DNA from: Porphyromonas pogonae | GTDB lineage: Bacteria; Bacteroidota; Bacteroidia; Bacteroidales; Porphyromonadaceae | Length of the DNA: 64,000 nucleotides | Assembly (NCBI RefSeq): GCF_036320655.1 | Contig: NZ_CP143258.1 | Location: forward strand, 1,798,001-1,862,000 | Reading direction: 5' to 3' | Shown here: positions 8,204-57,420 of the stretch, one piece after another | Layout: every line of letters begins with the position of its first letter | Position numbering within the stretch: the first letter of the stretch is position 1 | The notes under the pieces: generated by a model | What the model was told of the DNA's origin: nothing | Database searches by the model: none | What the model saw: the letters and a program-made list of their open reading frames with translations, nothing else | Position numbers and translations under genes: made by a program

Positions 8204-8430
8204 CTTTCAAGCAATTTATTGTAAACGACACATGAAATAAACGCTCAGTATCAGCTTGTTATTTAATGGCTGAGAGTTATATGATTGAGCATTAAATTGT
8301 GATAAATTATCCTGTTAAAAGTGTAAAAAAAGCTTGACAATATGCCATCTTACTGATTTTTCAAGTATAATGATCCTAAAATAGCAGCCTAAAGGCTCTC
8401 AATATTTCTATAACTTGGTTGTATTATTTT

Positions 8431-8533
8431 CTTAGTTAGGTTGTCTTATTTTTGTAACTAAGAAAATGCAAACACTTAGTTAGGAAAATATTAGAATGTA
8501 GTTAGAAAAATTATGAAACATAGTTAGGAAAAA
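8431..8533. repeat. CTTAGTTAGGAAAAAT repeat cluster R1
   Basis: Within the gene-free stretch 8224-8952 there are five copies of a short element based on CTTAGTTAG(G/A)AAAAAT: an inverted pair CTTAGTTA (8431-8438) and TAACTAAG (8455-8462), then direct copies near 8474, 8498 and 8520. Related clusters lie at 37047-38296 and 57313-57420. No coding frame crosses it. A TTGACAA string sits upstream at 8334-8340 but has no TAnnTTTG partner. Confidence 0.75.
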
Positions 8534-8550
8534 CCGGATTAACCTCCAAA

Positions 8551-8737
8551 GAGACCGTTGCATAGCAGGCAAATTGCTTCGTTGCTTGCGAGATTCGCGC
8601 TTGGTCATTTACCTGAAGTAAACACCCTGTGCACTCACTCTTAGCGCCTTGCACTTTACCCTCTCTGCCCGGTCAAAGTGTCTTTTGTCGGCTTTGCCTC
8701 CAAAATCCACAAGACTGTTGACTTTTGCAACAGTCTC
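8551..8737. mobile_element. MITE-like element with GAGACYGTTGCA ends
   Basis: The 187-base segment begins GAGACCGTTGCA and ends TGCAACAGTCTC, an imperfect 12-bp terminal inverted repeat with one mismatch. Near the right end AGACTGTTG and CAACAGTCT (8712-8736) form a perfect 9-bp hairpin. It contains no open frame and is more GC-rich than its surroundings. Its first 67 bases recur at 45786-45852 in the opposite orientation with one mismatch, which shows it is mobile or derived from a mobile element. Similar GAGACTGTTGC ends occur on insertion sequences of oral Bacteroidetes. I found no convincing target duplication. Confidence 0.6.
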
Positions 8738-8952
8738 CCCAAATAAAAAGACAGCATTAAGGAGCGACTATCTTCTATACGGCTTTTAGTTTGCTATCAG
8801 ATATATTTTTATGTTTTTAGAATTTGATATTACAACCTTTTGTCATTTGCAAAATTTGGGAATAAATAACCTGCTGAAATTATCCGTCTGCCGGGAACTA
8901 CAATCCGGTTAGAGAATCATTTGATAGGTTATTTGCGAGATCGAATAAAATA

Positions 8953-20115: not shown

Positions 20116-20273
20116 GTAAAGGTGTCATTCCTTTTTCATTCTTTCTATATTTATGATAATTCCTAACCTTAAATTCTTCTTTTTAAAAGTCCTTGTAGGA
20201 TGCTGATAGGGCATCCTCAATTCTTATATGATGTGCTGAAGATCTTATCATAATAGGATGATTGTCTGTGTAC

Positions 20274-20361
20274 GATAAAACGTTCGACTTATTAGGATAA
20301 AACGTTCGACCTATTAGGATAAAATCGTTGACTTTGTATGATAGAATTTCAGCGCCCGTTA
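20274..20361. repeat. Tandem 22-base repeat
   Basis: Four consecutive 22-base units starting GATAAAA lie at 20274, 20296, 20318 and 20340. The first two differ at one position (GATAAAACGTTCGACYTATTAG); the third and fourth are progressively diverged. The surrounding gap 20116-20497 has no gene. The exact phase suggests replication slippage or a protein-binding array. Confidence 0.75.
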
Positions 20362-20514: not shown

Positions 20515-20588
20515 GGCTCGGTAGCTTAGTTGAATAGAGCGTCAGATTCCGGTTCTGAAGGTCGTGGGTTTGAGTCCCACCCGAGTCA
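20515..20588 (+). tRNA. tRNA-Arg (anticodon CCG)
   Basis: The 74-base sequence folds as a full cloverleaf: acceptor GGCTCGG with CCGAGTC (one G-U pair), a D-arm with GCT/AGC, anticodon stem TCAGA/TCTGA around the loop TTCCGGT, and T-stem GTGGG/CCCAC around TTTGAGT. Anticodon CCG reads CGG, so it is tRNA-Arg. The 3' CCA is not encoded. It is a single tRNA gene. Confidence 0.95.
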
Positions 20589-36729: not shown

Positions 36730-36761
36730 TTGACAACAGGAGGGAGGATGTTGTATCTTTG
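36730..36761 (+). promoter_or_regulatory. Promoter of small-RNA-like cassette A
   Basis: TTGACAA (36730-36736) and TATCTTTG (36754-36761) with 21 bases between TTG and TATCTTTG. The segment CTCTTGACAA...GATGTTGTATCTTTGT is shared with cassette B at 57012-57045, including the exact spacing. Confidence 0.7.
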
Positions 36762-36767
36762 TCCATA

Positions 36768-37020
36768 TCCAAATTTATACTAACGAAATCATGATATCAA
36801 CTATAATCAAATCTAAGTGTATTATAAACTCAAAAGTGAGACCTGTGAAGAGAGTAAAACTTAATAAAGTAATCGAAGTATCCTAACTATAGCTAAACTA
36901 TCATTTTGTCAAAACAAGGTAATGAGAAATAAATATCAAATTGTCAGAATGTAAAAAGGCACCTGACGTTAACAATAAAAGCCGTAATGGGGATGTATAC
37001 ACCTCTTTACGGCTTTTTTT
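36768..37020 (+). ncRNA. Small-RNA-like cassette A
   Basis: A transcript of about 250 bases is predicted between the strong promoter at 36730 and the terminator at 36977. It shares with cassette B the promoter, the 16-base string TATCATTTTGTCAAAA (36899-36914) and a GCCGTAA-stem terminator, while the rest differs. It holds a possible 31-codon frame (36791-36886, MISTIIKSKCIINSKVRPVK), which has no counterpart in B, so an RNA function is preferred. It is followed directly by repeat cluster R2. Family unknown. Confidence 0.5.
36977..37020 (+). terminator. Terminator of cassette A
   Basis: A perfect 11-bp stem AAAAGCCGTAA (36977-36987) with TTACGGCTTTT (37007-37017), followed by T residues. Confidence 0.85.
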
Positions 37021-37046
37021 GTTTTTGAGCTCTATGATACTTTTTT

Positions 37047-37120
37047 CTTAGTTAGGTGGAGCTATTTTTCTAACTGTCTTATGCTATTTTCCTAACTACG
37101 TGTTTGGATTTTTCTAACTA
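37047..37120. repeat. TTTTTCTAACTAAG repeat cluster R2, left part
   Basis: Four copies in alternating orientation: CTTAGTTAGG (37047 on), then ATTTTTCTAACT, ATTTTCCTAACTA and ATTTTTCTAACTA, the last interrupted by the IS982-family element at 37121. Removing the element and one 6-base duplication restores a perfect TTTTTCTAACTAAG unit. Confidence 0.75.
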
Positions 37121-38197
37121 ACGTGAGTTCGATATAAGGGATAATAGGAATAATAGAGTTTAGAAAGTGTTGTAAATCAGTGTAATTTCTTATGTATTTC
37201 ATTGCAAAAGTGGTGAATTATTTGTATCTTAGTAGTTGATAATCAATAAGATATAAACAAACAAAACACCACTTTATGAAAACAAATATAGTTGAAATTT
37301 TCTGTCTTACCGATGATTTTTCCAAACTTTTCGATACCTTGATTCAGCAAAGAACCCTTTGCGAAGGAAACAAAAAGCGAAGAAATCGCAAGTTTAGGAT
37401 GTCCGATGCTGAAATCATGACTATTCTGATTCTTTTCCATCATTCGAGGTATCGCGATTTTAAGTCCTTTTATCTTCAATATATTACGCAACAATGTCAT
37501 TCGGATTTTCCTTCGTTGGTCTCTTACAATCGTTTTGTGGAATTACAAAGCAAGGTGGCATTCAAACTAATTTCATTTCTCAATATGTGTTGTTTGGGCG
37601 AATGCACCGGTATCTCATTCATTGATTCCACACCTTTACGCACCTGCCATATCAAGCGGGCACACGGGCATAAGACCATGAAAGGATGGGCCCAAAAGGG
37701 CAAATGCAGTATGGGATGGTTCTATGGTTTCAAACTGCATATTGTGATTAACGACCGGGGTGAAATCATTCAATATCAAATCACACCGGGGAATACGGAT
37801 GACCGTGCTCCACTTAAAGGCGGAACCTTCACGAAGAAACTATTCGGCAAACTTGTTGGCGACAGAGGATACATCTCACAAAGTCTTTTCGATAAGCTCT
37901 TCATTGACGACATACACATGATTACGAAGATAAAGAAAAACATGAAAAACACACTGATGAGCCTGTATGATAGGATATTACTCAGAAAAAGAGCACTTGT
38001 GGAAACCGTTAATGACCTACTCAAAAACGTTTGTCAAATAGAGCATACACGACATAGAAGCGTCAATAATTTCGCCATTAATTTGATTGCCGGCATAATT
38101 GCCTACAATCTGCTACCCAAAAAGCCGGAATTAAACCTAGAAATCATACACAATCCATCAACCCTCTTAGTACACCACGCTTAGACCGAACTCACGT
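37121..38197 (+). mobile_element. IS982-family insertion sequence, copy 1
   Basis: A 1077-base element. Its ends ACGTGAGTTCGATATAAGGG and (reverse complement) ACGTGAGTTCGGTCTAAGCG match at 17 of 20 positions. It is flanked by the 6-base duplication TAACTA (37115-37120 and 38198-38203), which lies inside repeat cluster R2. It carries one transposase gene and is almost identical to copy 2 at 44633-45709, so both moved recently. Confidence 0.92.
37276..38184 (+). CDS. IS982-family transposase (copy 1)
   Basis: The 302-residue DDE transposase fills the element. Catalytic residues are D117 (SFIDSTPL), D196 (LVGDRGYIS) and E243 (ALVETVNDLLKN), the spacing expected of IS982. The N-terminal region (RMSDAEIMTILILFHHSRYR) is the family's helix-rich domain. 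The frame is intact, so the element is probably active. It differs from copy 2 by one silent change that I can see (CTA versus CTT near 37846). It catalyses cut-and-paste transposition. Confidence 0.95.
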   Translation: MKTNIVEIFCLTDDFSKLFDTLIQQRTLCEGNKKRRNRKFRMSDAEIMTILILFHHSRYRDFKSFYLQYITQQCHSDFPSLVSYNRFVELQSKVAFKLISFLNMCCLGECTGISFIDSTPLRTCHIKRAHGHKTMKGWAQKGKCSMGWFYGFKLHIVINDRGEIIQYQITPGNTDDRAPLKGGTFTKKLFGKLVGDRGYISQSLFDKLFIDDIHMITKIKKNMKNTLMSLYDRILLRKRALVETVNDLLKNVCQIEHTRHRSVNNFAINLIAGIIAYNLLPKKPELNLEIIHNPSTLLVHHA

Positions 38198-55480: not shown

Positions 55481-57011
55481 CTAATCTATACACATATCTC
55501 AACGATTTAACATACTTTTATTCAATTTATTGCATTGTATCCTCGTTGTTTTTTTCGTATCTTTATATATGTAACTTAACATTTTCAGGCGTCATAAAAG
55601 ATGCACGTATCGCTAAGCGATTATATTTCGTCTTGGCAGCAATGACACGTCGTGTGGACGGGGTCATGAACAGTTGTTTTAAGAATCATGCAGAAAGGCA
55701 GGGGGCTTATCGACTCCTAAATAATAAAAGATGGAAAATGGATCAGTTTTTGGACTGCGTTACCGCAAATAGCGCACAATGTTGCAAAGATCTTAAGCAT
55801 GTGCTTTGCATTCAGGATACTACAGAGTTTACTTTTGATAATATCAGTGGCCGATTAAACCCTAATGACGAAGATTATGGGTATGGAACCAACAAGAGTT
55901 CGGAGTACAGCATCTTTGCTCATCCTTGCTTGCTCTTTGACCCTGAGACGGAAACCCCTATGGGTTATAGTTCGATTGAGTTGTATAACAGAGATCGCAA
56001 AGACGCACGCCAGAAGAAACAGCTGCGTAAAAAAATTGGATTTAATGAGAAAGAATCGTCTCGTTGGGCTGCATCGGCTAAAATGGCAAACGCGAATTTG
56101 CCAGAAAATTTACGTAAAACCATGGTGGGTGATCGTGAGAATGATATCTACACCGTCATGAGTAAGACGTTGGAAGAAGGATGTGATTTTCTGATTCGCT
56201 CCATTCACAATCGGCTTCTCGAGGGAGATTCAAAATCTAAAAAAGAACGTATCATCGAATGGTTGGATAAACAACCGGTTAGTTTCAGTTGCACATCCCA
56301 GATCACTAGGCAAAATAGGCGTAAACCTCGCAAGGCGTTGTTCGACGTCAAATATGCACCAGTCACTTTCGGCAACACAGGTAATGGTAAAGACGATGTT
56401 TCAAAGAGTATTAGCTGCCACTACGTTCATGTCAGAGAAGATGCCGGTAGCGTTCCCGAGGGTGAAAAGCCTATCGAATGGCGTTTGCTCACCTCGCACG
56501 AAGTAAAGAGTAAGGAAGATGCACTCCGGATTATACAGTGGTACAAGTATCGATGGCATATCGAAGAAGTCTTTAGATTAATGAAAACCAAAGGCTTGGG
56601 TATTACCTCTGCCCAATTAGAAAACGGTATGGCGATGAAAAAGCTTATGGCAATGGGGTTCTATGTTGTGCTAAAGTGTATGACTCTAAAGAAAAAATAT
56701 GACACTGCCAATGAGAGCGTTTCATGTAATCGACTCTTTACAGAGGAAGAGTGCGAGATGCTGCATCTAGAGATGGAAATGCTACATAAAGAGTCTCCTC
56801 GATCAAAAGATGGGAATAATCCTTTTCGGGAAGATTCGTTAGCTTGGGCTTCGTGGATAATAGCCCGACTGGGATCATGGAAAGCTTATGTAAAATCTGG
56901 CGGACCTCCAGGATATAATACCATATGCAAAGGTCTAAAGGTTTTCCATGAGCACCTCACTGTACTATCTTTCATGAAACAAAAAAATTAAAAGATGTGT
57001 ATAAAGATTAG
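55481..57011 (+). mobile_element. IS4-family (IS50/Tn5-like) insertion sequence
   Basis: A 1531-base element. The left end CTAATCTATACACATATCT and the reverse-complemented right end CTAATCTTTATACACATCTT are imperfect inverted repeats that recall the Tn5 outside end. It is flanked by the 10-base direct repeat CTTGACAAAG (55471-55480 and 57012-57021). The right-hand duplication is the -33 region of cassette B's promoter, so the element landed at that promoter's edge and left it intact. Confidence 0.9.
55546..56991 (+). CDS. IS4-family transposase (Tn5-like)
   Basis: The 481-residue DDE transposase resembles Tn5 transposase. Catalytic residues are D91 (CIQDTTEF), D196 (MVGDREND) and E340 within the Y-R-E-K signature (YKYRWHIEEVFRLMK). 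The conserved N-terminal DNA-binding part starts near residue 16 (VIKDARIAKRL). No ATG precedes this region; TTG at 55546 is the most likely start and the frame stays open to the left end of the element. Weak initiation may limit transposition. The frame is otherwise intact. Confidence 0.9.
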   Translation: MFFSYLYICNLTFSGVIKDARIAKRLYFVLAAMTRRVDGVMNSCFKNHAERQGAYRLLNNKRWKMDQFLDCVTANSAQCCKDLKHVLCIQDTTEFTFDNISGRLNPNDEDYGYGTNKSSEYSIFAHPCLLFDPETETPMGYSSIELYNRDRKDARQKKQLRKKIGFNEKESSRWAASAKMANANLPENLRKTMVGDRENDIYTVMSKTLEEGCDFLIRSIHNRLLEGDSKSKKERIIEWLDKQPVSFSCTSQITRQNRRKPRKALFDVKYAPVTFGNTGNGKDDVSKSISCHYVHVREDAGSVPEGEKPIEWRLLTSHEVKSKEDALRIIQWYKYRWHIEEVFRLMKTKGLGITSAQLENGMAMKKLMAMGFYVVLKCMTLKKKYDTANESVSCNRLFTEEECEMLHLEMEMLHKESPRSKDGNNPFREDSLAWASWIIARLGSWKAYVKSGGPPGYNTICKGLKVFHEHLTVLSFMKQKN

Positions 57012-57012
57012 C

Positions 57013-57044
57013 TTGACAAAGGGGGGTGTGATGTTGTATCTTTG
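57013..57044 (+). promoter_or_regulatory. Promoter of small-RNA-like cassette B
   Basis: TTGACAAA (57013-57020) and TATCTTTG (57037-57044) with 21 bases between TTG and TATCTTTG, as in cassette A. TTGACAAAG is part of the target duplication of the IS4-family element. Confidence 0.7.
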
Positions 57045-57050
57045 TTGACA

Positions 57051-57290
57051 TATGACAATAATATTTTATAGCCATACAATGAAAGCTCGTATAAATAGCA
57101 TACATCAAACCAATACCGATAATAACTTATTTACCGGCATATCATATGTACTTATAAATATTGTTGAACTTACATTTTGTCAGATCGGTTCGAGAAAGAT
57201 AAAATATCATTTTGTCAAAATATAAAAAGATATAACTTTTAATAAACAAAGAGCCGTAAGGAGTTTTTTTATAAGCTCTTTACGGCTTTT
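57051..57290 (+). ncRNA. Small-RNA-like cassette B
   Basis: A predicted transcript of about 240 bases between the promoter at 57013 and the terminator at 57252. It shares with cassette A the promoter, the string TATCATTTTGTCAAAA (57205-57220), a further ATTTTGTCAGA at about 57173-57183, and the GCCGTAA-stem terminator. A 48-codon frame (57079-57225, MKARINSIHQTNTDNN) has no relative in A. It is followed directly by repeat cluster R3. Family unknown. Confidence 0.5.
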
Positions 57291-57292
57291 TT
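57252..57292 (+). terminator. Terminator of cassette B
   Basis: AGCCGTAAGGAG (57252-57263) pairs with CTCTTTACGGCT (57276-57287) with one wobble pair, followed by TTTTTT. The AGCCGTAA core is shared with the terminator of cassette A. Confidence 0.85.
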
Positions 57293-57312
57293 GTTTGTGT
57301 ATTAAGACAGGC

Positions 57313-57420
57313 ATTTTTCTAACTAAGTAGTGATATTTTCTTAACCAGACAATTCAATCTTCTTAGTTAGAAAAATATAAAAGCGTAGTTAAGAAAATAT
57401 CACTACTTAGTTAGAAAAAT
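57313..57420. repeat. TTTTTCTAACTAAG repeat cluster R3 with 33-bp perfect inverted repeat
   Basis: Bases 57313-57345 and 57388-57420 are a perfect 33-bp inverted repeat separated by 42 bases. Each arm holds TTTTTCTAACTAAG and TTTTCTTAAC, and the loop holds a further CTTAGTTAGAAAAATA. The string TAAAAGCGTAGTTA links it to cluster R2. The rest of the gap to 57782 shows no convincing gene. Confidence 0.85.

Follow-up and report, generated by a model that had tools for sequence, protein, structure and literature searches.

BrickBuilt of Porphyromonas gingivalis is present in 19 copies, with a 23-nt repeat and IS5-type terminal inverted repeats (TIRs), GAGACCTTTGCA (PMC4596501). FopS, described in Bacteroides, is a group of 14 paralogous sRNAs with a shared seed, for which the authors excluded short ORFs (PMC11697453). 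MITEs that contain ORFs or promoters are also known, and include ERIC, BOX, QMITE1, Correia and the Rickettsia RPE (PMC10969869); a further paper deals with elements of this kind (PMC2759123).

The locus considered here, A, lies in a 64,000-nucleotide stretch of the Porphyromonas pogonae genome (contig NZ_CP143258.1, positions 1,798,001 to 1,862,000; hereafter the window), together with a second locus of the same kind, B. Their parts, in window coordinates, are:

36730..36761, forward strand: promoter of A, TTGACA ... TATCTTTG (pattern search; spacing kept despite a varying G run)
36791..36886, forward strand: short ORF of A, from the first ATG, 31 codons plus stop (family frame test)
36899..36911, forward strand: site S1 of A, TATCATTTTGTCA (motif comparison)
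36934..36946, forward strand: site S2 of A, TATCAAATTGTCA, 35 bp after S1 (motif comparison)
36971..37023, forward strand: intrinsic terminator of A (arms 36971-36992 and 37002-37023, 86% complementary)
37049..37119, no strand: 22-bp alpha array of A, cut by an IS from about 37120 (limits by eye)
57013..57044, forward strand: promoter of B (pattern search)
57079..57225, forward strand: short ORF of B, 48 codons plus stop
57172..57182, forward strand: site S1 of B, ACATTTTGTCA (motif comparison)
57205..57217, forward strand: site S2 of B, TATCATTTTGTCA (motif comparison)
57250..57295, forward strand: terminator of B (limits by eye; consensus structure)
57313..57420, no strand: alpha array of B, with 33-nt perfect inverted arms at 57313-57345 and 57388-57420

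The promoter of A is of the Bacteroidota -33/-7 form. A first-pass annotation had described TTGACA (36730-36735), TATCTTTG (36754-36761), TATCATTTTGTCAAAA (36899-36914) and the GCCGTAA terminator in A, and the same parts in B, all of which we confirm; we place B at 57013-57295. It had further presented the two loci as twins with a shared 16-base site. Aligned with each other, A and B agree in the promoter, the terminator and two short sites close to the end. The two sites of each locus are related and stand 35 bp apart, but the 16-mer common to both loci occupies S1 in A and S2 in B, so that the loci do not correspond part for part, and rather than forming a pair they belong to a set of 74 promoter copies in one genome. 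The suggestion of a family with a common promoter and terminator and a variable remainder is borne out, with far more than two members. The element also extends past the terminator into a 22-bp array, which in A is shortened by the IS. Mobility, the arrays and the copy number had all escaped the first-pass annotation.

The size of the family was established by several searches of the genome carrying A and B, a single contig of 2,916,423 bases (2.92 Mb). The promoter pattern TTGACA-N12-18-TTGTATCTTTG occurs at 74 places and its reversed control at none. A search with 300 bp of A, in which 40 of the 105 candidates were scored, found at least 59 matches at E<=0.001. The exact 13-mer TATCATTTTGTCA occurs 35 times (reversed control, 0): 27 occurrences lie where expected relative to promoter copies, another five fall in other copies or their tails, two in copies matched by the search with A, and one, at genome position 354486, within a called ORF. 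Eighty-three stretches (L021-L103) were fetched, among which the 74 promoter copies were recovered (A is L070 and B is L071). By script, at least one further landmark accompanies 69 of these 74: S1/S2-like sites are found in 31, and in 20 a TATCA-N3-TGTCA-like site precedes the promoter by 50-100 bp. A 22-bp array of at least 40 bp is of the alpha type in 22 and of the beta type in 25, never both, with strict seeds that overlook degenerate arrays. Five copies (L032, L060, L063, L089 and L096) have no further landmark by script, although L089 has S sites in a separate site comparison; some of the five may be ordinary promoters. Common to the copies are the promoter geometry, a copy-specific body and, where detected, the 22-bp palindrome array.

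Two subtypes can be distinguished. In subtype 1, to which A and B belong, the order is promoter, body, S1, S2, terminator and alpha array; approximately 31 copies, A and B included, have two TGTCA sites about 35 bp apart together with the terminator. The distance from S1 to S2, taken from 22 of 25 copies, is 35 in 18, 36 in three and 34 in one, while the sequence between the sites varies. In subtype 2, TATCATTTTGTCA stands about 72 bp upstream of the promoter and is followed by the body and a beta array. A right-hand TGACA-N3-TGTCA-like site is found at +550 to +1250 in 17 of the 20 copies with the upstream site, the left-hand site being of the form TATCA-N3-TGTCA. The window also holds arrays on their own, an alpha-type array at 8403-8532 lacking a promoter and a beta-type array at 20270-20343, about 170 bp before a tRNA gene (20515-20588). 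At about +275, the otherwise near-identical copies L048, L057 and L079 differ in the length of a CT dinucleotide run.

Like BrickBuilt, the cassette is dispersed, intergenic, non-autonomous and MITE-like, with a leader, a short-period tandem array and a tail, and promoter activity is described for BrickBuilt (PMC4596501). It differs in copy number (74 against 19) and in its repeat, which is unrelated to the 23-nt one (PMC4596501). The BrickBuilt repeat, AGAYCATARTATCCTCTCRTRTG, has no occurrence in the A/B genome at up to one mismatch, 208 in genome G006 and 23 in genome G008. A comparison of leaders, using a 506-bp stretch of subtype 1, gave one 25-bp match in G006 (E 0.0067); ATTTTGTCA is absent from the leaders of seven BrickBuilt stretches of G006, where the strict promoter pattern also has no occurrence. 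The left end of subtype 2 is TATCATTTTGTCA, not the IS5-type TIRs of BrickBuilt. Homology to BrickBuilt was therefore rejected on repeat, leader and subtype-2 left end; the cassette may work like BrickBuilt, without being a member of it. With FopS it shares multiple copies, a Bacteroidota-type promoter and a terminator hairpin, but FopS has a shared seed and no short ORF, and a copied unit with defined ends is not reported in the part of that account drawn on here (PMC11697453). ERIC, BOX, QMITE1, Correia and RPE are, like the cassette, small dispersed mobile repeats with promoters or ORFs of unknown function (PMC10969869). The Rickettsia RPE encode a conserved peptide, according to the same review (PMC10969869), whereas cassette bodies differ in nearly every copy, and the cassette has its own promoter and, in one subtype, a terminator. 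What is unusual is the number of copies that read as full transcription units, mostly each with its own open frame. We found no description of the A/B element in the open-licence literature searched.

Our preferred explanation, in which we have about even confidence, is that A belongs to a family of MITE-like cassettes that is multi-copy and specific to one lineage. Each cassette would be a small transcription unit, complete with a promoter of its own and a short ORF that diverges fast. The 300-base locus looks more like a mobile small-gene cassette than one of a pair of twin regulatory RNAs.

Evidence that whole units have been copied comes from pairs of related copies. L041 and L044 are 83.6% identical over 943 columns, and L099 and L100 are 97.7% identical over 1102; in both pairs the common block runs from about -77, four to six bases before TATCATTTTGTCA, to near the right-hand site, with unrelated flanks. 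On the evidence of these two pairs, subtype-2 units that have been copied elsewhere in the genome carry TATCATTTTGTCA as the mark of their left end. The right end is less regular: similarity between L041 and L044 continues about 20 bp beyond the right-hand site, and the right edge of L100 breaks within it. L048 and L079 share a left edge at TATC, but similarity on the right resumes after a 115-bp indel, near an rRNA operon, and the pair is therefore uninformative on the right end; L079 itself lies near the start of a 16S gene. No target-site duplication was seen at the two copied pairs, and no autonomous partner with ends of this type came to light in these non-systematic comparisons. In subtype 1, A shares 99.5% identity with L072 over the 211 bp that begin at S1; before S1 the two match only in the promoter stretch (-2 to 34). 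Such a junction is most simply explained by a recombination or conversion event at S1. In L038, the edge at TTGACA is that of an inserted segment, and is not taken as the left end of subtype 1. An empty-site comparison was attempted in congeners: the radical-SAM-like gene beside one copy has at most 73% protein identity there, and in 19 loci its neighbour is not beside it.

Copies are dispersed, mostly intergenic and without a transposase gene, as is general for MITEs, and lie in mixed orientation. The neighbouring ORFs (at least 90 codons, not curated genes) are oriented ++ at 20 copies, -- at 19, +- at 19 and -+ at 11, with one side unknown at five, and a called ORF overlaps the promoter in six of the 74; these mixed orientations argue against a cis regulator of neighbouring genes. 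In B and in L074, TTGACA is directly preceded by the end of an inserted segment that carries a DDE transposase gene (window 55546-56991), and another inserted segment ends there in L038, L054 and L094. Insertions have entered the arrays of A, L103, L060, L057, L067, L073, L084 and L089, and the one in A carries a DDE transposase (37276-38184). They recur at the same points, as if cassettes were preferred targets. Two MITEs of P. gingivalis, MITE464/PgRS and MITE239, are recognisable in the A/B genome by TIR-like ends, at 8548-8738 and 37124 of the window (PMC4596501, Table 2). They nest in or beside cassettes, and their ends differ from those of the cassette. The segment at 8548-8738, whose ends resemble the MITE464/PgRS TIRs, follows the lone alpha array, and a MITE464-like repeat of about 187 bp occurs in or near many cassettes, its 9-mers being found in about 20 of the 74 stretches.

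The spacer between TTGACA and TTGTATCTTTG measures 15 in 50 copies, 14 in 23 and 16 in one (12-18 permitted), although its longest G run ranges from one to nine over the 74. Where the run reaches four or more (53 copies), its length correlates with the remainder of the spacer at -0.94, and none of 10,000 permutations gave a spacer variance as small. We read this as indirect evidence that the geometry is selected, indicating that the promoter probably has a function. The promoter runs of the near-identical copies L037 and L038 differ by one G, a possible slippage event. Phase variation by slippage of the G run was considered and rejected, since run length is balanced by the spacer remainder in the 53 copies.

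Within the genus, the promoter pattern was found in two of 26 genomes, 74 times in the A/B genome and once in G018, where the match has a different spacing and precedes what reads as an ordinary gene. Searches of 25 congeners by promoter, sequence and 13-mer did not find the cassette family. The 506-bp subtype-1 stretch gave at best two 25-bp matches there (E about 0.006), and TATCATTTTGTCA occurs once each in three of the 25 (the reversed control once each in two), against 35 times in the A/B genome. Among 38 genomes of the taxonomic family, the S1-S2 pattern is confined to one, with 13 occurrences. Since the relatives are distant and non-coding sequence is not expected to align between them, it is the short patterns that carry the argument for absence. 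In a wider collection of named genomes, from which records of the own genome were possibly excluded, the promoter was found at four places, with no cassette within 700 bases. In G016, the one congener sampled for arrays, Tandem Repeats Finder detected one or more tandem arrays with a period near 22 in each of twenty 20-kb stretches (L205-L224), built from different palindromes, GAGGGATATCCCTC-like (GATATC-centred) and TTATATAAC-like. The cassette was not seen in 14 G016 array flanks, and the strict promoter is absent from that genome. It may thus be that many species of the genus have arrays of short period, whereas the promoter-ORF cassette is special to the A/B lineage.

An alternative, which we judge unlikely, is that these loci form a multicopy family of regulatory sRNAs, in which the transcript would function as RNA, with S1/S2 (UUUUGUCA) as its seed or as the binding site of a protein, and the open frame would be incidental. 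The promoter, the body of about 250 nt, the paired sites with their kept spacing and the precedent of the 14-member FopS family in Bacteroides (PMC11697453) would all suit such a family, as would a terminator with covariation. The last of these was examined through the compensatory changes that the first-pass annotation had proposed as a check. They are present in the terminator, where nine of 13 pairs have two-sided changes and 93.8% of cells are paired (0 of 500 shuffles as high), but the consensus structure of 26 subtype-1 copies consists of the terminator stem alone, with nothing before it. At the gathering score, the only Rfam match in the whole window is a tRNA elsewhere, and neither A nor B has one. 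In subtype 2 the motif falls outside the transcribed part: TATCATTTTGTCA precedes the promoter by about 72 bp, where copied units have their left edge, and so behaves as a DNA site. With covariation limited to the terminator and the motif so placed, a regulatory RNA with a 16-base functional site, as first proposed, is not supported. An RNA reading also leaves aside bodies that are unique and an openness that is specific to one frame.

When the first ATG after the promoter was taken with no further choice, in 66 of the 74 copies (eight near-duplicates or insert-bearing copies dropped), the mean ORF was 33.6 codons, compared with 16.1 +/- 1.6 in 300 rounds of dinucleotide shuffling (highest round, 21.1). 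Frames 0, +1 and +2 reach at least 30 codons in 43, 10 and 15 of the 66, and in 33, 9 and 14 of the 55 copies left when each body cluster is represented once; stops within the first 30 codons number 51, 174 and 115 in 67 copies, the +1 count being inflated by ATGA. The earlier view that A holds no convincing gene calls for some qualification: A itself has a frame of only 31 codons, but in the family as a whole the first-ATG frame is open beyond chance. Since this frame is kept open, short peptide genes fit better than a regulatory RNA.

How far the peptides themselves matter is a separate question. Changes fall evenly over the codon positions (130/169/168 in 15 gapless, partly dependent pairs with hand-chosen starts), and pN/pS over 11 pairs, with starts again hand-chosen, is 0.71 in frame, 0.74 in one wrong frame and 0.67 in the other, so that no amino-acid constraint, in the sense of purifying selection on codons, was seen in the pair comparisons. 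The first codons of 63 ORFs give a weak consensus, M-x3-[TI]-N-N-[IT]-L, with information lowest at third positions (P=0.025; 0.047 without codon 2). The frame thus seems to be held open, for about 35 codons, even as the peptide changes under little or no amino-acid constraint. The earlier proposal of short divergent peptide genes under common control stands in part: the frame is open, but the pairs show no codon-type conservation, of which the first codons give no more than a weak hint. A conserved C-terminal peptide across S1-S2 (LTFCQN...KYQIVKM) was convincing by eye; it was rejected because S1 and S2 are 34, 35 or 36 bp apart depending on the copy, and because the frame in which S1 is read differs between copies. 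The bodies are also poor candidates for captured fragments of host genes, as each of 14 tested matches only itself in the genome, apart from B, which additionally matches its paralogue L067. A stronger form of the peptide reading, in which rapidly diversifying genes are kept for secreted, toxin-like or antigenic products and duplicated, with the sites as operators of a common regulator, would account for the open frames, the common promoter and the weak N-terminal consensus. We regard it as distinctly unlikely, as there is no excess of amino-acid change over the wrong frames, the sites stand at unit ends, and ten peptides gave no match in NCBIfam and only two in PHROGs (E 0.13 and 0.24), both for the same peptide. 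Less likely still, in our estimate, is that the arrays are the functional part, as dispersed sites for a putative nucleoid- or chromosome-organising protein with the cassette as a passenger. The 22-bp pitch, the two mutually exclusive array types of the A/B genome, the arrays in all 20 G016 stretches sampled and the 23-bp arrays of P. gingivalis agree with this; however, array sequences differ between species, and the promoter geometry, terminator and open frame are left unexplained.

Returning to the MITE-like cassette, we can propose how it might operate. Each copy would be transcribed as an mRNA of about 250 nt and translated into a fast-diverging peptide of 30-50 residues. The TGTCA sites would serve as DNA sites for a trans-acting recombinase or transposase, which in subtype 2 would copy whole units through them; in subtype 1, a different body would be joined to the terminator-array module, with the junction at S1. 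The arrays might bind a dimeric protein, the least certain step. A bolder version, which we advance as a long shot, is that a mobile cassette has turned into a repertoire of around 70 expressed short genes with the same promoter and mostly a peptide of their own, the frame held open and its sequence free, in which bodies are joined to the terminator-array module at TGTCA recombination sites. It would then be a nursery of new short genes, tied to genus-wide, fast-changing arrays of 22-23-bp palindromes and to a protein that binds them.

If the copies are expressed, this bacterium would contain dozens of transcription units differing mainly in a short, freely varying frame, and would offer a natural experiment on the origin of new short genes. 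Expression would equally be a warning for the annotation of small RNAs and small proteins in this group, where a large repeat family lies ahead. More generally, palindrome arrays of short period, described in P. gingivalis as BrickBuilt, seem to be matched in other species of the genus by arrays of unrelated sequence, which would point to a common function.
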